Source: Geovibrio thiophilus (lineage in GTDB: Bacteria > Chrysiogenota > Deferribacteres > Deferribacterales > Geovibrionaceae). Taken from it: a stretch of DNA of 64,000 nt. Shown here piece by piece: positions 15,860 to 64,000 of this stretch. Where the stretch lies: contig NZ_CP035108.1 of the NCBI RefSeq assembly GCF_004087915.1, forward strand, positions 1,550,001 to 1,614,000, read 5' to 3'. The notes below the pieces were generated by a model. The model worked only from the letters and a program-made list of their open reading frames with translations, did not search any database and was not told the origin of the DNA. How positions within the stretch are numbered: the first letter of the stretch is position 1; each line of letters starts with the position of its first letter. The translations under genes and the position numbers were made by a program.

Positions 15860-16658
15860 CAGGAAAATCGGGTTTATCGGAGCAGGAAACATGGCGTTTG
15901 CCTTAATGAAAGGGCTTGTGAACTCCGGTCTTGTACCACCTGAAAACATAATGGCATCTGATCCGGAACCGTCAAGGTTTGAAGGCTTGAGCAAATCTCT
16001 GAATATCACCATTACCACCGATAATATAGCGGTCGCTAAAAAGAGCGATATTATAATGATTTGTGTAAAACCGCAGGTAGCAAAATATGTGATGGATGAA
16101 ATAAGCCAGTTTCTGAAAGATAAGCTGCTTATTTCCATTGCCGCAGGTGTCAAAACAGATTTTTTTGAGCATTACCTCAGCGGACTTCGGGTTATCAGGG
16201 TTATGTCAAATACTCCCGCGCTGGTAGGCGAGGGCTCATCCGCCATATGCGCCGGCAAATACGCCGGAAAGCCGGAGCTTGAGATAGCGGACAAGCTTTT
16301 CTGCTCTGTGGGCAAGGTGGCTGTGATAGAGGAAAAATATATGGACGCTGTGACGGGTCTCTCCGGCAGCGGTCCTGCCTATGTTTTCAAGTTTATTGAG
16401 GCTCTTTCCGATGCGGGTGTGAAGCTGGGCTTAAGCCGTGAGACATCCCGCATGCTTGCTGCTCAGACTGTTTACGGCTCCGCTAAGCTTGTTCTAGAAA
16501 CGGGTGAGCATCCCATGGCGCTTAAGGATATGGTTACCTCCCCCGGCGGAACGACCATTGTCGGCGTCCACATGCTTGAGAAAGGCGGCTTCTCCGCGGC
16601 TATTATTGATGCAGTGGAAGAAGCTACGAAACGTTCGGAAGAGCTCGGGAAGAAATAG
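15846..16658 (+). CDS. proC: Pyrroline-5-carboxylate reductase
   Basis: 270 residues. The NAD(P)-binding motif GFIGAGNMAFAL is near the N-terminus and the ProC dimerisation signature with SGSGPAYVFKFIEAL lies in the C-terminal half. It performs the last step of proline synthesis. ATG 15846 is within the preceding gene. The last 13 codons (EEATKRSEELGKK and stop) are repeated once downstream inside array B. Confidence 0.95.
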   Translation: MSLSNRKIGFIGAGNMAFALMKGLVNSGLVPPENIMASDPEPSRFEGLSKSLNITITTDNIAVAKKSDIIMICVKPQVAKYVMDEISQFLKDKLLISIAAGVKTDFFEHYLSGLRVIRVMSNTPALVGEGSSAICAGKYAGKPELEIADKLFCSVGKVAVIEEKYMDAVTGLSGSGPAYVFKFIEALSDAGVKLGLSRETSRMLAAQTVYGSAKLVLETGEHPMALKDMVTSPGGTTIVGVHMLEKGGFSAAIIDAVEEATKRSEELGKK

Positions 16659-17138
16659 ACCTGCGATTCCAATGATGGAATCGCGCCGTGCGAAGCGAAG
16701 CCGCATTTACTGCGGCGCGAGCGTGTATCCAAAATTTCCATGGATGGCAAATTTTGGATTGTCAAAACAGAAGAAGCTACGAAACGTTCGGAAGAGCTCG
16801 GGAAGAAATAGACCTGCGATTCCAATGATGGAATCGCGCCGTGCGAAGCGAAGCCGCATTTACTGCGGCGCGAGCGTGTACATCAAACTGACAGGATGTG
16901 CAGTTTGATGTTATTGATATAGACGTAAACAGTCCCAAGGACGGGACTGCGCCGTGCGAAGCGAAGCCGCATTTACTGCGGCGCGAGCGTGTACATCAAA
17001 CTGACAGGATGTACAGTTTGATGTTATTGATATAGACGTAAACAGTCCCAAGGACGGGACTGCGCCGTGCGAAGCGAAGCCGCATTTACTGCGGCGCGAG
17101 CGTGTACATCAAACTGACAGGATGTGCAGTTTGATGTT
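16619..17138 (+). repeat. Array B: mosaic of four three-hairpin elements after proC
   Basis: Elements are at 16663-16758, 16816-16911, 16930-17024 and 17043-17137. The linkers GCGCCGTGCGAAGCGAAG and GCGAGCGTGTA and H2 (GCCGCA/TGCGGC) are identical in all four. H1 and H3 are not: copies 1-2 have H1 GCGATTCCA/TGGAATCGC while copies 3-4 have CAGTCCC/GGGACTG. Copy 1 has H3 with an A/T stem and loop ATGGAT, whereas copies 2-4 have ACATCAAACTG/CAGTTTGATGT with CAGGATG (copy 3 CAGGATG followed by TAC) near the apex. The first two units (period 153) include the proC 3' end; later spacing is 113 bp. Hairpins have been exchanged as modules. Confidence 0.93.
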
Positions 17139-17158
17139 ATTGATATAGACGTAAAAAA

Positions 17159-18908: not shown

Positions 18909-21791
18909 ATGAAATATTCGCGCAGTTATTCTTTCTTTTTTACCGTTTTGCTTATTATGATATTCTCCATTTCCTGCGGAAGCGGCAGCGGAGGTGCTGA
19001 TAATGGAAACGGTGACAGTGATGAAGACGGAAATACAAACTCGGCTCCACAACTCACGGGAATCCCTCAGACATCCGTAACAGCCGGTTCTGTTTACAGC
19101 TTCATCCCTCAGGCAAGCGATCCTGATGGGGATGTACTGATCTTCGAGGTATTCAACAAACCGTCATGGGCATCTTTCAGCAGCTCAACAGGAGAACTGA
19201 GAGGCACGCCTTCAACGGGAGACACAGGAACCTACAACGGAGTGATAATAACTGTCAGAGATGCTTCCGATGCCGCCGTATTACCTCCTTTCAGTGTAAG
19301 TGTTTATTATGATAATTCTCCGCCGGATATAACAGGCACGCCCCAAACATCGGCAACGGCGGGCAGCTCATACTCCTTTAGTCCGTCCGCAACTGACCCG
19401 GATGGAGACAGTCTCTCCTATGAAATAGTCAATAAACCCTTATGGGCTTCCTTCAGCGCATTAACAGGAATCCTCAGCGGCACTCCGCAGACAGAGCATA
19501 CTGGTGTGTACAACGGCATTATTATAAAAGTTACAGATAATAAAGGCGGTTCAGATTACCTTTCTTCTTTTTCCGTAACCGTTTATGCGGTTAATACTCC
19601 GCCGCAGATAAATGGAACACCGATCATGGCAATAACATCCGGCACAGCGTATGCCTTTGCTCCCTCAGTCAGCGACGCAGACGGAGACACACTCACTTAC
19701 AATATACTGAATAAGCCTTCATGGGCTGCTTTTGACAATTCCACAGGCGTACTCACCGGAACTGCGGTTGCGGGTGTTTACGGCGGCATAGTTATAACCG
19801 TTTCAGATGGTAAAGGCGGCATGTCAGCGCTGCCTGCGTTCGGTATCACTGTTTATGCGGTTAACACTCCGCCGCAGATAAACGGAACGCCTCTTGCTTC
19901 ACTTACATCCGGCACAGCGTATGCCTTTGTTCCCTCAGTCAGCGACGCAGACGGAGACACACTCACTTGCAATATACTGAACAAGCCTTCATGGGCCGCT
20001 TTTGACAATTCCACAGGCGTACTCACCGGAACTGCGGTTGCGGGTGTTTACGGCGGCATAGTTATAACCGTTTCAGATGGTAAAGGCGGCATGTCAGCGC
20101 TGCCTGCGTTCGGTATCACTGTTTATGCGGTTAACACTCCGCCGCAGATAAACGGAACGCCTCTTGCTTCACTTACATCCGGCACAGCGTATGCCTTTGT
20201 TCCCTCAGTCAGCGACGCAGACGGAGACACACTCACTTGCAATATACTGAACAAGCCTTCATGGGCCGCTTTTGACAATTCCACAGGCGTACTCACCGGA
20301 ACTGCGGTTGCGGGTGTTTACGGCGGCATAGTTATAACCGTTTCAGATGGTAAAGGCGGCATGTCAGCGCTGCCTGCGTTCGGTATCACTGTTTATGCGG
20401 TTAACACTCCGCCGCAGATAAACGGAACGCCTCTTGCTTCACTTACATCCGGCACAGCGTATGCCTTTGTTCCCTCAGTCAGCGACGCAGACGGAGACAC
20501 ACTCACTTACAATATACTGAATAAGCCTTCATGGGCTGCTTTTGACAATTCCACAGGCGTACTCACCGGAACTGCGGTTGCGGGTGTTTACGGCGGCATA
20601 GTTATAACCGTTTCAGATGGTAAAGGCGGCATGTCAGCACTGCCTGCGTTCGGTATCACTGTTTATGCGGTTAACACTCCGCCGCAGATAAGCGGAACGC
20701 CGGACACATCTGTTCATCCGGGGTATGTATATCTTTTTGAACCTGTCGGAAACGATCCAGATGGAGATATTGTGATTTACTCCATTGAAAATATGCCCTC
20801 ATGGGCTGATTTCAGCAGGTATTTCGGTATACTCACCGGAACACCTTCTGCGAGAGATGTCGGTACTTACGCAGATATTGTGATAAGCATCAGTGACGGC
20901 ATAAGCACCGTCCTGCTTGCTCCTTTCACTGTCAATGTGGCGTTCCCGCCTTTAGGAGTGCTGAAAACAGGGCAGACAGTGAGCTATATGAACTATGATG
21001 ACGGCTTTTATCAGAAGGGTATCACCAGAAGCTACAGCAGGACAGATGAAATAGTAACCGATACGGTAACAGGGCTTCACTGGCAGGATAATGCAGATGT
21101 TGAAACAGTACAAAGAGACTGGCAGGGGGCTATTGACTATTGTGACGCGCTTGAACTGGGCGATTATGATGACTGGCGTTTACCCGTTGGAAAAGAACTT
21201 ATGTCAATTGTTGATCACACAAGGAATGTTCCGGCTCTTGATCCGATCTTTGAGAATATAAATCCGGATCCGTATATGCAGTACTGGTCATCAACAGATT
21301 ATAGTACCAATGATGCTTTACGTGTCAGTTTTTGGTCAGGTGTAGAGTCTTCCTTTGATAAAACATCTGCTTTATTTGTTCGTTGCGTACGGGGGGACAC
21401 TTTACCTCAGAGCAGTTTTACCAGAGACAATGTGGAGGAAACAGTGGAGGACACAGCAACAGGCTTGATATGGCAGGACAATGCGGAGGTTGCTTCTGAA
21501 ACATATGCTTGGCAGGGTGCAATAAGCAACTGTGAACTGCTTATTACTGGCGGGCACGATGACTGGCGTTTGCCTAACATAAATGAACTTAAAACTCTAG
21601 CTGACTACACAATGTCCAATCCTGCTATATACTCCGCATTCCAGAATACGGCAAATGCTTACTATTGGTCATCAACTACAAATCCTCTCATTCTATCCGG
21701 CGCATGGGAAGTTAATTTCGGTACCGGTTTCACTTACAATAGCCCCAGAACCGATGGTCGTTATGTCCGTTGTGTCCGAGGCGGGCAGTGA
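18909..21791 (+). CDS. Large lipoprotein with Ig-like repeats and two DUF1566/Lcl C-terminal domains
   Basis: 960 residues. A signal peptide with lipobox-like SISC (Cys about 23) is followed by a Gly/Asp/Asn-rich linker, so it is probably a surface lipoprotein. About seven 90-residue Ig/cadherin-like (He_PIG type) modules cover residues 40-680, with motifs such as SDADGDTLTYNILNKPSWA. Four of them are encoded by almost identical 270-bp DNA repeats (19591-20670). Two DUF1566 (Lcl C-terminal) domains end it, at about 711-830 and 841-958, each with WQGAI, DDWRLP, YWSST and VRCVRG motifs. Likely an adhesin or carbohydrate-binding surface protein; that is inference. A long structured leader precedes it. 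Confidence 0.82.
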   Translation: MKYSRSYSFFFTVLLIMIFSISCGSGSGGADNGNGDSDEDGNTNSAPQLTGIPQTSVTAGSVYSFIPQASDPDGDVLIFEVFNKPSWASFSSSTGELRGTPSTGDTGTYNGVIITVRDASDAAVLPPFSVSVYYDNSPPDITGTPQTSATAGSSYSFSPSATDPDGDSLSYEIVNKPLWASFSALTGILSGTPQTEHTGVYNGIIIKVTDNKGGSDYLSSFSVTVYAVNTPPQINGTPIMAITSGTAYAFAPSVSDADGDTLTYNILNKPSWAAFDNSTGVLTGTAVAGVYGGIVITVSDGKGGMSALPAFGITVYAVNTPPQINGTPLASLTSGTAYAFVPSVSDADGDTLTCNILNKPSWAAFDNSTGVLTGTAVAGVYGGIVITVSDGKGGMSALPAFGITVYAVNTPPQINGTPLASLTSGTAYAFVPSVSDADGDTLTCNILNKPSWAAFDNSTGVLTGTAVAGVYGGIVITVSDGKGGMSALPAFGITVYAVNTPPQINGTPLASLTSGTAYAFVPSVSDADGDTLTYNILNKPSWAAFDNSTGVLTGTAVAGVYGGIVITVSDGKGGMSALPAFGITVYAVNTPPQISGTPDTSVHPGYVYLFEPVGNDPDGDIVIYSIENMPSWADFSRYFGILTGTPSARDVGTYADIVISISDGISTVLLAPFTVNVAFPPLGVLKTGQTVSYMNYDDGFYQKGITRSYSRTDEIVTDTVTGLHWQDNADVETVQRDWQGAIDYCDALELGDYDDWRLPVGKELMSIVDHTRNVPALDPIFENINPDPYMQYWSSTDYSTNDALRVSFWSGVESSFDKTSALFVRCVRGDTLPQSSFTRDNVEETVEDTATGLIWQDNAEVASETYAWQGAISNCELLITGGHDDWRLPNINELKTLADYTMSNPAIYSAFQNTANAYYWSSTTNPLILSGAWEVNFGTGFTYNSPRTDGRYVRCVRGGQ
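19591..20670 (+). repeat. Four in-frame 270-bp tandem repeats inside the lipoprotein gene
   Basis: Repeat starts are at 19591, 19861, 20131 and 20401. Each is exactly 270 bp (90 codons). The middle two are essentially identical, while the outer copies differ at a few bases (TAC/TGC codon, GCT/GCC). Such identity at synonymous sites means recent duplication or gene conversion, so copy number may vary between strains and assemblies. Confidence 0.95.
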
Positions 21792-26566: not shown

Positions 26567-27406
26567 ATGATAGATCTCCATTGTCACTCGGTTTTTTCAG
26601 ACGGAACCAAGACTCCCGCAGAGATTGTAAGGATGGCGGATTCCAAGAGGATAAGGCATATAGCGCTCACTGACCATGATACGGTTGCCGGTCTTCCTGA
26701 TTTTTTCGCCGCTAAAGGGAATGCGGAGCGTATCGCGGGCACGGAGATAAGCATTGATTTCTCGCCCGGCACTATGCACGTTGTGGGGCTGTTTATAGAC
26801 TACAAAAGCGCGGAGCTGACCGCAAAACTCGGAGAGCTGCTAATCGCCAGAAAAGAAAGGAATGACAGCATGCTTAAAGAAGTCAGCAGGCTTGTAGACA
26901 GGGAGATTACGGAGAATGAGGTCAGCACATCGAACCTTGGCGAACTCGGCAGACCGCATATAGCGAAGTTTCTTATAAGAGAAGGCGTTGTGGCGGATAT
27001 GGAAGAGGCGTTCGACAAATACTTAGCCAAAGGTAAGCCGATTTACAGAGAGAGGAAACGCTTCAGCTTTGAGGAAAGCGCGGAGATGATACACGCAGCA
27101 GGGGGTATAACAATACTCGCCCATCCGTTCAGCATGCGTTTGGAGAAGGATGCTTACCTGCCTTATATCAAAGGGATGACGGATAAGGGGCTTGACGCCG
27201 TTGAGACTTACTGCTCGTACCATTCCGAAGAGGATACCTTGTTTTTCAATGACTTGACAAAGAAACTCGGACTCCCTGTCTCCGCCGGAAGCGATTACCA
27301 CGGCGAAAACAAAACAAACGTCAAGCTGGGCAAATGGAACTGCCGTCTGCACAACCCCGAAAATGTTTTGTACGCTTTAAGGAAGAAGGCGGAGCAGTAC
27401 AGGTGA
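26567..27406 (+). CDS. PHP-domain phosphoesterase (RNase AM/YciV-like)
   Basis: 279 residues. The PHP metal motifs are DLHCHSVFSDGT at the N-terminus, LTDHDT near 36-41, an internal ILAHPF and GSDYHG near the C-terminus. Similar E. coli YciV/TrpH acts on 5' ends of RNA precursors and on 3',5'-bisnucleotides. AGGTGA lies 9 nt before ATG 26567. The last 22 codons are copied three more times downstream in array C. Confidence 0.85.
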   Translation: MIDLHCHSVFSDGTKTPAEIVRMADSKRIRHIALTDHDTVAGLPDFFAAKGNAERIAGTEISIDFSPGTMHVVGLFIDYKSAELTAKLGELLIARKERNDSMLKEVSRLVDREITENEVSTSNLGELGRPHIAKFLIREGVVADMEEAFDKYLAKGKPIYRERKRFSFEESAEMIHAAGGITILAHPFSMRLEKDAYLPYIKGMTDKGLDAVETYCSYHSEEDTLFFNDLTKKLGLPVSAGSDYHGENKTNVKLGKWNCRLHNPENVLYALRKKAEQYR

Positions 27407-28135
27407 CTGTTCAGGCAGTTTCATTTGAGTTACAACTCCATAGATGGAGTTGCGCCGTGCGGAGCGAAGGCGGGTTTATCCCGCCGCGAGCGTGTATCCA
27501 AATCCGGCAGGACGCGCGGATTTGGATTGTCATAACAGAGCCTGCCGTCTGCACAACCCCGAAAATGTTTTGTACGCTTTAAGGAAGAAGGCGGAGCAGT
27601 ACAGGTGACTGTTCAGGCAGTTTCATTTGAGTGACAACTCCATAGATGGAGTTGCGCCGTGCGGAGCGAAGGCGGGTTTATCCCGCCGCGAGCGTGTATC
27701 CAAATCCGGCAGGACGCGCGGATTTGGATTGTCATAACAGAGTCTGCCGTCTGCACAACCCCGAAAATGTTTTGTACGCTTTAAGGAAGAAGGCGGAGCA
27801 GTACAGGTGACTATTCAGGCAGTTTCATTTGAGTTACAACTCCATAGATGGAGTTGCGCCGTGCGGAGCGAAGGCGGGTTTATCCCGCCGCGAGCGTGTA
27901 TCCAAATCCGGCAGGACGCGCGGATTTGGATTGTTATAACAGAGCCTGCCGTCTGCACAACCCCGAAAATGTTTTGTACGCTTTAAGGAAGAAGGCGGAG
28001 CAGTACAGGTGACTATTCAGGCAGTTTCATTTGAGTTACAACTCCATAGATGGAGTTGCGCCGTGCGGAGCGAAGGCGGGTTTATCCCGCCGCGAGCGTG
28101 TATCCAAATCCGGCAGGACGCGCGGATTTGGATTG
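27341..28135 (+). repeat. Array C: four 202-bp units of 3'-end of PHP gene plus three-hairpin element
   Basis: Units start at 27341, 27543, 27745 and 27947 (period 202). Elements lie at 27433-27526, 27635-27728, 27837-27930 and 28039-28132. In copy 1, H1 is CAACTCCA/TGGAGTTG with hexaloop ATAGAT (27433-27452), linker 27452-27469, H2 GGCGGG/CCCGCC (27469-27485), linker 27486-27496, and H3 TCCAAATCCG/CGGATTTGGA around GCAGGACGCG (27497-27526). Copies differ by single bases only. The last copy abuts the stop of the minus-strand HAD gene at 28136. Confidence 0.95.
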
Positions 28136-28753
28136 TTAAGTCAGATGTTTAAATACTTCCATGTGATTATCTATCCTTATGCTCTCATGCAGGCTGCTTC
28201 CGAATGACAGGAACGGCATGTTAGCCCCCTTCGCAGCTTTATAATCCGCTTCCGAGTCACCGAGAAAGAGCATATTTCTCTTATGAACGGAGAAGTGCTC
28301 TGCTATTTTATTCAAGCCTTCGGGATGCGGCTTAGGGCGCACAACATCAAAGCTGCAAACCAGCCTGTCAAAGTAATCATACATTTTGAAATGCTTGAGA
28401 AGCGGATCTATGGAAACACCTCTGTTGGTGCATACCGCCATTTTATGCCCTTCGGATTTCAGCTTTTCCAGCGCCTCAAACACTCCGGCTGCGGGTATCA
28501 TCTTATCCAGAAACATGCGGAAGTTCAGCTTGGTGGCAAACTCCATTATCGCATTAAACTTCTTCTCATCCTTGCAGAAATGACCTATGATCTCGCTGTT
28601 GGTACTCATCATGGCAAGCTCAAACGTCTTGGGGTCGCTCCAATCGGGCATGCTCAGCTCAAACTTTTCAAACACATGATCATAATAGGCTTTTACAGCC
28701 AACGAGCTGTCAAAAAGAACTCCGTCGCAATCGTACACAATAACTTTTTTCAT
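28136..28753 (-). CDS. HAD-superfamily phosphatase, phosphoglycolate-phosphatase-like
   Basis: 205 residues. Motif I DCDGVLFDSS (nucleophile D8/acid D10), motif II around CTNRG, Lys in RPKP, and motif IV LGDSEADYKAAK define a HAD hydrolase with a helical cap inserted after motif I (about 15-80). Substrate unknown. The stop codon lies at the outer end of array C, so this gene and the PHP gene converge on the repeat. Confidence 0.82.
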   Translation of the reverse strand: MKKVIVYDCDGVLFDSSLAVKAYYDHVFEKFELSMPDWSDPKTFELAMMSTNSEIIGHFCKDEKKFNAIMEFATKLNFRMFLDKMIPAAGVFEALEKLKSEGHKMAVCTNRGVSIDPLLKHFKMYDYFDRLVCSFDVVRPKPHPEGLNKIAEHFSVHKRNMLFLGDSEADYKAAKGANMPFLSFGSSLHESIRIDNHMEVFKHLT

Positions 28754-50560: not shown

Positions 50561-50646
50561 ACAGCAATGCTTCCGGTGAAGAATCTCAAAAACCATATAA
50601 TCTGATTATCACTTTCAAATTTTCTTGCACATCAGGTTAAGTATGT

Positions 50647-50703
50647 TATCATTGAATTAATCGGTGAATCGAAACTCCTCAGAAGTTCTTATTTTTCAAA
50701 TAA
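50647..50703 (+). promoter_or_regulatory. Promoter and conserved leader motif before the ferredoxin gene
   Basis: TTGCAC about 50625 and TATCAT (50647-50652) with a 16-nt spacer form a promoter. At 50667-50695 a 29-nt leader block is shared, with only two differences, with 63416-63444 upstream of the Tat-protein gene; its invariant 3' half is TCAGAAGTTCTTATTTT. The block can fold as GAA(R)CT/AGTTC with a bulged purine. In both places it lies at about +5 to +37 of the predicted transcript. Confidence 0.55.
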
Positions 50704-50778
50704 GTTCCCGCAAAATATTTGTAAATCCTGAATAATTATCAATTCCTGTTCGTTTAGGATTTCTCATGCGAGGTTGTT

Positions 50779-51136
50779 ATGAGAGAAAAAACTTCAGAAG
50801 AACTTCAAATTAAAGCATCTGCATTTGGAAACGATTAAAAAGCTTTTTCAGGATGAAGACGAAGATAACAACGCTCCATTGCCCAATCCTCTTCCTCAAC
50901 CTGATCCTCAACCAAGTACACCTACTCCCAGCTTTGTTTTTATTTCAATCACTACGAGCATTTGTATTGGTTGCAGTGTTTGTATAAATGAATGTAACTA
51001 TAATGTATTATCACTTTCAGAAGAAAAAGCCGAGGTTGTTGACCGTGGTGCCTGTAATGCTTGTGGAAAATGTGAGGACGCCTGTCCTACGGGTGCGATT
51101 AATGTATACACAGTGATTGATTTGGAAGATTATTAG
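50779..51136 (+). pseudogene. Two-cluster 4Fe-4S ferredoxin gene, probable 1-nt frameshift near the 5' end
   Basis: ATG 50779 follows GCGAGG but its frame closes at TAA 50836-50838 after 19 codons. From TTG 50825 another frame runs to 51136 (103 codons) without a ribosome site. Deleting one T in TTT at 50824-50826 would join them into a smooth 118-residue protein (MREKTSEELQIKASA + LETIKKLFQ...). The downstream part has an acidic, then Pro-rich linker and two [4Fe-4S] motifs: CIGCSVCINEC and CNACGKCEDACP. It is either a real or sequencing frameshift, or a translation-coupled TTG start. A YwqK/MORN-like gene follows after 10 nt. Confidence 0.6.
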
Positions 51137-51146
51137 GAGGTTTAAC

Positions 51147-51971
51147 ATGAAAGCATTGTTTGCAGTATTCTTTTTTTTTATATCATTATCTTTATTTGCA
51201 TCGGAAAAGGTCGAGCGTTTTTGGGTTTGCGACGGCAGAGATGCAGCCGAAACGGAACAGAAAAATTTTTTTTTTATTGAAAAAAATCAAACAGATGAAT
51301 TTGTCAGGCTAATGGATAAGGTGAACGGTACCTGCGAACGTGTTAACAATAAGAAAGAAAAACTTGTATCTGAAGTCCGCGCTGGGAAAAGAGAAGGCAT
51401 CTTCAGAAAATATGATCAGTATGAGAGATTAATATTGACAACCTATTATAAAAACGGATTGATGCACGGACAGGCTAGAGCGTATCACCCAAACGGAAAT
51501 GTCAATTATGAATTTTATTTGAAGGATGACCAAATTGAAGGTGTTTTGAAAATTTTCAATGAAGACGGAATAATAATCAGTGATGCCGTCTTAAAAAATG
51601 GTATGGCAAACGGGATTGTGCATAGATACTACGATAGCGGCGAGGTTTATACTTCATATCAGTTGTTGGAGAACAAAAGGGAAGGAGTTCAGCAGTTTTA
51701 TTTTAAAACTGGGGTTATAAGTGGTGAATTTCATTTTGCAGATAACTTGCTGAATGGAACAGCGAAAGCCTATTTGGATAACGGCAAACAAGTATTCGAG
51801 ATCAATTACATAAACCATGTTGCCGTATCAGGTATTTGCTTCAATGGAGAACAACGAATTGTTCTAACACAGGAAGAACTCTTGGACTGGCAAAAAGTCA
51901 AATGTTGGGAAACTGAGCAAACAGTCTTGCAGACAGATTTCAATAATCCTTTTATTCCGTTTCCTTTTTAA
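51147..51971 (+). CDS. Secreted YwqK/MORN-repeat protein
   Basis: 274 residues from ATG 51147, with AGGAGG ideally placed; an earlier in-frame start would overlap the ferredoxin gene. Signal peptide (1-20, FFFFISLSLFA-SE). Repeats of the YwqK/MORN-variant type, N-G-x-x-x-G-x-x-x-x-Y-x-x-x-G, span about 75-235 (KNGLMHGQARAYHPNGNVNYE and similar). Usual annotation is toxin-antitoxin YwqK family antitoxin, but no toxin is adjacent and a signal peptide argues for an envelope protein. AT-richer than neighbours, suggesting an acquired gene. Confidence 0.72.
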   Translation: MKALFAVFFFFISLSLFASEKVERFWVCDGRDAAETEQKNFFFIEKNQTDEFVRLMDKVNGTCERVNNKKEKLVSEVRAGKREGIFRKYDQYERLILTTYYKNGLMHGQARAYHPNGNVNYEFYLKDDQIEGVLKIFNEDGIIISDAVLKNGMANGIVHRYYDSGEVYTSYQLLENKREGVQQFYFKTGVISGEFHFADNLLNGTAKAYLDNGKQVFEINYINHVAVSGICFNGEQRIVLTQEELLDWQKVKCWETEQTVLQTDFNNPFIPFPF

Positions 51972-57131: not shown

Positions 57132-57169
57132 GGTTCAATAGGGCGGTTTGCCCGTCCAAGTGTGTACAG

Positions 57170-57724
57170 AAAGTTTTCCCGTGAGGGATAGCTTATTCAT
57201 TAACCCCTGCGTTCCCACTGACGGGAACGCGCCGTGCGCAGCGAAGGTTTGCTCTGCAAACCGCGAGCGTGTATAAAGTTTTCCCGTAAGGGATAGCTTA
57301 TTCATTAACCCCTGCGTTCCCACTGACGGGAACGCGCCGTGCGCAGCGAAGGTTTGCTCTGCAAACCGCGAGCGTGTATAAAGTTTTCCCGTAAGGGATA
57401 GCTTATTCATTAACCCCTGCGTTCCCACTGACGGGAACGCGCCGTGCGCAGCGAAGGTTTGCTCTGCAAACCGCGAGCGTGTATAAAGTTTTCCCGTAAG
57501 GGATAGCTTATTCATTAACCCCTGCGTTCCCATTGACGGGAACGCGCCGTGCGCAGCGAAGGTTTGCTTTGCAAACCGCGAGCGTGTATAAAGTTTTCCC
57601 GTAAGGGATAGCTTATTCATTAACCCCTGCGTTCCCATTGACGGGAACGCGCCGTGCGCAGCGAAGGTTTGCTTTGCAAACCGCGAGCGTGTATAAAAAT
57701 TTTCCATGGATGGGAAAATTTTTA
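57170..57724 (+). repeat. Array E: five 105-bp tandem three-hairpin units
   Basis: Units begin at 57170, 57275, 57380, 57485 and 57590 (period exactly 105). H1 of unit 1 is 57210-57229 (CGTTCCC/GGGAACG, loop ACTGAC), linker GCGCCGTGCGCAGCGAAG (57229-57246), H2 GGTTTGC/GCAAACC (57246-57262), linker 57263-57273, and H3 AAGTTTTCCC/GGGATAGCTT with one mismatch. The last unit ends instead with H3 57694-57724 (TAAAAATTTTCC arm, loop ATGGAT), as in array A. Units 4-5 differ by C-to-T changes in loops only. Because 105 is divisible by 3, a 190-codon open frame appears on the minus strand; it is an artefact. Unlike arrays A-D it does not include the recG 3' end. Confidence 0.95.
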
Positions 57725-63338: not shown

Positions 63339-63345
63339 AAATAAG

Positions 63346-63367
63346 GCAGCCGTCCGGCTGCTTTTTT
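63346..63367 (+). terminator. Intrinsic terminator after pyrD
   Basis: GCAGCC-GTCC-GGCTGC (63346-63361) followed by T6. Confidence 0.9.
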
Positions 63368-63375
63368 CATATTCT

Positions 63376-63444
63376 GTTGAAAATCAAACTCATACTGATA
63401 TAATGCAGCAAGGTCAATCGAAGCTCTTCAGAAGTTCTTATTTT
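63376..63444 (+). promoter_or_regulatory. Promoter and conserved leader motif before the Tat-protein gene
   Basis: TTGAAA (about 63377) with a 16-nt spacer and perfect TATAAT (63399-63404). The 29-nt block 63416-63444 matches 50667-50695 except at two positions, both pyrimidine or purine transitions. AAGGAG precedes ATG 63482. Confidence 0.6.
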
Positions 63445-63481: not shown

Positions 63482-64000
63482 ATGAAATCATCACGCAGAA
63501 GTTTTATCAAAAATGCTGCTCTGACCGGAGTATTGGTTTGGAGTTTCGGATGTGCCGCTTACGGAAGTGAGATTGCTACGGATCCCGTCAGCATCAGAGA
63601 AGCTAAAATCAAAGGAGAGTCCTTTGATGATGGTAATTCGGCATATGACAAAGAAAAAAAACAGTTCAAATTGCGTAAGGACGGGGATGAGATAGTCTTT
63701 TCCGCAAAAGATATTCCTTATGATTATAATAAAAAACTCAAGAAGGCAGAATCCTTAGGATTTCCCGGAATGACTGTTACTTATAATAACACAACAATAA
63801 ATGTTGATTATCTTTCAAGCTTCACTGTGGAACGTAATGGTTACTGTATGATAATAAAAAACGGGAGTGATTTGATAGTAAACAGTTATTTTTTGACAGA
63901 AGGGGACATTGATCCCGAAATACCGGTTTTTCCGATAACTTTGAAATACAATAACCTGTTCTTCACAATTAACGACGATATTGTGACTCTTGAAGTAAAC
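63482..64000 (+). CDS. Tat-exported protein, 5' part only (runs off the window)
   Basis: 173 codons are open to the window end; the stop is not included. The N-terminus has a twin-arginine signal SRRSFIKNAALTGVLVW followed by a lipobox-like SFGC-AA, so it may be a Tat lipoprotein. The mature part begins hydrophilic (EIATDPVSIREAKIKGES) and is beta-rich; I recognise no family. AAGGAG lies 7-8 nt before the ATG. Its leader is shared with the ferredoxin gene at 50.8 kb, suggesting common control. Tat export often implies cofactor binding before export. Confidence 0.75.
   Translation, partial: MKSSRRSFIKNAALTGVLVWSFGCAAYGSEIATDPVSIREAKIKGESFDDGNSAYDKEKKQFKLRKDGDEIVFSAKDIPYDYNKKLKKAESLGFPGMTVTYNNTTINVDYLSSFTVERNGYCMIIKNGSDLIVNSYFLTEGDIDPEIPVFPITLKYNNLFFTINDDIVTLEVN

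Follow-up and report, generated by a model that had tools for sequence, protein, structure and literature searches.

A conserved 29-nt leader block behind extended -10 promoters as a candidate operator for exported MORN_2-repeat and redox genes in Geovibrio

The locus raises the question of why separate transcription units should begin with the same short sequence, and whether this sequence acts as DNA or as RNA. We analyzed a window of 64,000 nucleotides from Geovibrio thiophilus (genome G000, 2,997,552 bp), in which the original prediction had placed one 29-nt block at two sites, two transitions apart. This was exactly what we found: copy A (AATCGAAACTCCTCAGAAGTTCTTATTTT) lies at 50667..50695 and copy B (AATCGAAGCTCTTCAGAAGTTCTTATTTT) at 63416..63444, both on the + strand, with an A/G and a C/T exchange between them (27/29 identity). 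Assuming uniform bases, only about 5e-5 pairs of 29-mers this similar are expected in 64 kb, and all other same-strand 29-mer pairs in the window with two mismatches or fewer fall within tandem or local repeat families. Local direct-repeat arrays, with approximate periods, were observed at 1117-1880 (~191 nt), 16615-17158 (113-153 nt), 19578-20702 (270 nt), 27338-28140 (202 nt) and 57168-57702 (105 nt). Across the entire G000 genome, the 17-nt core of the block occurs exactly twice, in copies A and B, and matches with 2-3 mismatches are no commoner than those for a reversed control pattern.

Relatives were searched with a 25-nt pattern, permitting up to 3 mismatches, in three genomes of the genus, those of G. 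thiophilus and its two closest sequenced relatives, and in 57 others. The pattern identified one copy in G001 (a MAG, LUZY01000013) and two copies, a and b, in G002, amounting to five copies in three genomes, with no copy in the 57 other genomes. Copy A is identical to G002 copy a at 29/29 positions; as these two are orthologous, the five copies represent four independent sites. A 44-position sequence model derived from all five copies returned E-values of 4e-10 to 3e-12 for those five in a scan of 31 genomes, where nothing else scored better than E 0.02. Weak model matches elsewhere in the order (E of at least 0.02) were rejected, the three with inspected context falling in coding sequence. 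Scanning GTDB contigs with a degenerate pattern yielded no further credible copy, and a match in a Smithella MAG resides within the yraN coding sequence and was put down to chance. A virus origin was likewise rejected, the viral contig collection containing no match to the block. In the genomes scanned, the block thus appears to be restricted to the genus.

Both copies in the window directly follow promoter-like sequences with 16-nt spacers, in agreement with the original prediction. Unit A carries a -35-like hexamer TTGCAC (50625..50630, + strand) and a -10 hexamer TATCAT (50647..50652, +), whereas unit B carries TTGAAA (63377..63382, +) and TATAAT (63399..63404, +), and in both promoters a TG placed one base ahead of the -10 hexamer makes this an extended element. 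An extended -10 is present in 5/5 copies, as TGTTATCAT three times and as TGTTACCGT and TGATATAAT, and a TTG element at a spacing of 16-17 nt likewise accompanies all five. A generic promoter scanner scored the B promoter above and the A promoter below threshold; the support for the latter is its conservation among copies, its -10 region being retained as TGTTATCAT in G002 copies a and b and as TGTTACCGT in G001. Promoters and start sites are consensus matches predicted from sequence. If +1 is set 7 nt downstream of the -10, copy A of the block covers about +9 to +37 and copy B about +6 to +34.

The block is positioned at a nearly constant distance from these promoters, starting 20, 20, 20, 20 and 17 nt after the start of the -10 hexamer in the five copies. 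Its end, in contrast, is separated from the start codon by 18, 37, 55, 83 or 86 nt. Because the distance is fixed relative to the promoter and variable relative to the start codon, the arrangement points to an operator, an initially transcribed sequence or a 5'-end RNA element rather than to a translational thermometer. The original prediction had named random, promoter-unrelated positions as the outcome that would speak against it, but all five copies lie 17-20 nt from an extended -10. A dispersed repeat of the REP/MITE type was rejected, as there are only two copies in G000 and five in the genus, all of them directly behind promoter-like sequences.

Within the block, the core CAGAAGTTCT (50680..50689, +, in copy A), which harbors a perfect 9-bp dyad AGAAGTTCT, is identical in 5/5 copies, the other invariant parts being CTC and flanking positions. 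Comparing the block with its surroundings, we found that the copies share 23-29 of 29 positions (79-100%), whereas MORN coding DNA is 61-64% identical, and that 5' of the promoter non-orthologous copies exhibit no convincing similarity, only the orthologous A and G002-a being related. Since the block is more conserved than both the MORN coding DNA and the upstream flanks, and its core is invariant, these data argue for selection acting on the block itself. A second conserved stretch, ATAAGTTCCCG (50699..50709, +), is present in the leaders of A, G002-a and G001 only (3/5); it is located 17-19 nt after the core dyad, and its first nine bases equal the dyad at 7/9 positions.

The genes behind the block are predicted to encode mostly exported or redox proteins. 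In unit A, a ferredoxin-like ORF with two 4Fe-4S motifs (50825..51136, +; Pfam Fer4) uses a TTG start, no in-frame ATG having been found, and is followed by the gene for an exported MORN_2-repeat protein of 274 aa (51147..51971, +; PF07661, 3.4e-11), whose relatives in G001 and G002 are also block-led. A putative short ORF, MREKTSEELQIKASAFGND (50779..50838, +), with an ATG and a Shine-Dalgarno sequence, overlaps the ferredoxin ORF in a frame offset by one and has a six-A run at 50786-50791 near its start; the offset and the A run could reflect a frameshift, phase variation or a sequencing error. Unit B encodes a Tat-signal protein of 212 aa (63482..64000, +, its end lying beyond the window at 64120 in extended coordinates), for which no homologue was detected in 59 other genomes, and as second gene a 62-aa two-cluster ferredoxin ORF that overlaps the Tat gene just outside the window (64110-64298; L041:811-999). 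It contains no MORN gene, and its payload is unrelated to that of the other four units. G002 copies a and b each lead a MORN_2 protein, and the G001 copy leads a Tat-signal-like orphan followed by a double MORN_2 protein. Conversely, all MORN-family genes found in G000-G002 (4/4) reside in block-led units. The two Tat-type proteins, of unit B and G001, are orphans, and their predicted structures (pLDDT 38 and 34) were too poor for use. The two genes in the window, originally described as unrelated, are therefore less so than claimed, since both units hold a ferredoxin ORF, followed in A by the exported MORN_2 gene; the notion of a regulon of secreted and redox genes is a fair one, with the MORN family as its commonest member. 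Considering a toxin-antitoxin arrangement of the YwqK type, we observed no recognisable toxin beside the MORN_2 genes, their partners being ferredoxin-like, a Tat-signal orphan or absent. Searching a defence library with the unit genes gave a single weak match, of the ferredoxin to BrxP (E 0.0016).

The units are spread over four chromosomal sites across the three genomes, and at the sites of one species' units, other genomes of the three carry no such unit. Units follow an XRE/cupin gene in both G000 and G002, and otherwise pyrD in G000, phoH in G002 and a histidine kinase gene in G001, each of these last three in one genome alone. At site A, G000 and G002 (C10) are ~92% identical through promoter and leader to about 50736, ~40 nt beyond the block, and the neighbouring XRE/cupin protein is 100% identical. 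The common sequence ends at the junction 50736..50737, behind which the genes are unrelated or, for the MORN proteins, 28% identical at the protein level. Site A has the appearance of a clean payload swap between sister species, which have promoter and leader in common but differ completely in the genes that follow. A 17-nt terminator stem, GGCAGCCGTCCGGCTGC, flanks unit B on both sides: one copy follows pyrD at 63345..63361 (+), and the only other copy in G000, at 1614319-1614335, closes the unit downstream; the two stems may mark how unit B came in. The 3' flanks of the units share no consistent similarity and no common boundary, and no integrase was seen beside the units in the regions read.

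Taken together, we give about even credence to the block being a cis-regulatory element that is confined to the genus and coupled to transcription initiation, most likely as a DNA operator lying shortly after the start site. The candidate operator would be built on the core dyad AGAAGTTCT, which lies within GWARCTCYYCAGAAGTTCTYRTTYT, and would reach from about +6/+9 to +37 behind an extended -10. Its putative regulon would consist of a few units, differing between species, that encode predicted exported MORN_2-repeat, Tat-signal and ferredoxin-like proteins. A protein occupying this site would keep transcription from starting or from passing early elongation, and a signal, which may be the state of the envelope or the redox state, would release it; protein binding, repression and signal are all three what we infer. 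We favour an operator over an sRNA target because the distance to the promoter hardly varies and the dyad is perfect, a preference over an RNA site rather than a demonstration. Counting against an operator, the dyad is short (9 bp), the remainder of the block is asymmetric, and the copies number five, or four when the orthologous pair is taken as one.

Alternatively, though we regard this as doubtful, the block could act as single-stranded 5'-leader RNA, serving as an sRNA-pairing site, an RNA-binding-protein site or a 5'-end stability element. It lies wholly within the predicted 5' UTR, has no AUG inside it, and its core is conserved without structure, as a pairing seed would be. However, the block keeps a nearly constant distance to the promoter but not to the start codon, no Rfam covariance model gave a match overlapping it, and no extended near-complement occurs elsewhere in G000, where matches with 2-3 mismatches remain at control level and fall nearly all inside ORFs of at least 100 codons. 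A structured RNA fares far worse. The original prediction proposed an RNA thermometer or similar riboregulator built on a bulged stem, GAA-R-CT/AGTTC, and five pairs can indeed be drawn in 4/5 copies. Yet none of the 5 pairs proposed by RNAalifold is backed by a compensatory change, G002 copy b disrupts one of them, the consensus energy of the block is -0.18 kcal/mol, and none of the leaders folded better than shuffled sequences (MFE z -0.67 to +1.6). Moreover, with its end 18-86 nt from the start codon, the block is not placed to occlude the ribosome-binding site. With no covariation, an ordinary folding energy and a position away from the ribosome-binding site, we hold a thermometer to be highly improbable and have dropped the stem.

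The remaining explanations attribute the conservation to the history of the units. Paralogous promoters may simply have been duplicated together with their genes and have no special function, in keeping with the MORN family in 4/5 units and with promoter and leader sequences that, in A, G001 and G002-b, align gap-free over the stretch from the -10 to the block. We nevertheless judge common descent alone to be quite improbable, as coding DNA has diverged well beyond the block, similarity is lost in the flanks upstream of the promoter, and the MORN-free unit B, despite its unrelated payload, shares 27/29 positions with A. A somewhat better, though still unlikely, explanation is that promoter and leader, being constant, serve as an expression site at which recombination in the shared leader swaps the payloads, so that conservation stems from recombination and not from regulation. 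The swap at site A next to an unchanged XRE/cupin neighbour, the location of units at different sites per species and their absence from the matching sites in others, and the terminator stems around unit B would fit this scenario. Standing against it, the units lack a common 3' boundary and an adjacent integrase in the regions read, site A is the single clear swap, and the block is short for homologous recombination. The two ideas could also be merged into a promoter-plus-leader expression site for interchangeable, species-specific exported MORN, Tat and ferredoxin payloads, the block being both control site and constant exchange end; this we consider improbable to a similar or slightly greater degree.

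With the operator as the preferred reading, the block provides a concrete cis element in Deferribacterales, for which a brief literature search found no regulatory work, and it connects exported proteins that otherwise lack annotation. Should payload exchange as at site A prove general, the units would make up a small system of expression sites for proteins of the surface or periplasm. Roadblock-type repression operates in regulons defined by operators that sit shortly after the transcription start. As in such regulons, the block is short, conserved and partly dyadic, and its spacing from the sigma-70-type promoters of related units is nearly fixed, but here there are only one or two units per genome and the operator is putative. 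The Pc-attI platform of integrons resembles site A in combining a constant promoter and leader with differing payloads downstream; in contrast to it, the units have no shared 3' ends and occupy four chromosomal sites, and no integrase was seen. An integron cassette platform was rejected, as the 3' flanks lack the consistent similarity that a shared recombination site at cassette ends would give. Proteins of the MORN_2/YwqK family (PF07661), represented in 4/5 block-led units, have been discussed as possible adhesins in Fusobacterium, where the sRNA FoxJ upregulates a MORN gene that stands at the end of its operon and lacks a TSS of its own (PMC11005410). The arrangement here differs from that one, and in the literature consulted, which concerns the MORN_2 proteins themselves, we came across no mention of a common leader or operator. 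The block is best supported as a shared, transcription-linked control site, which we read as a putative operator-like element serving a small regulon.
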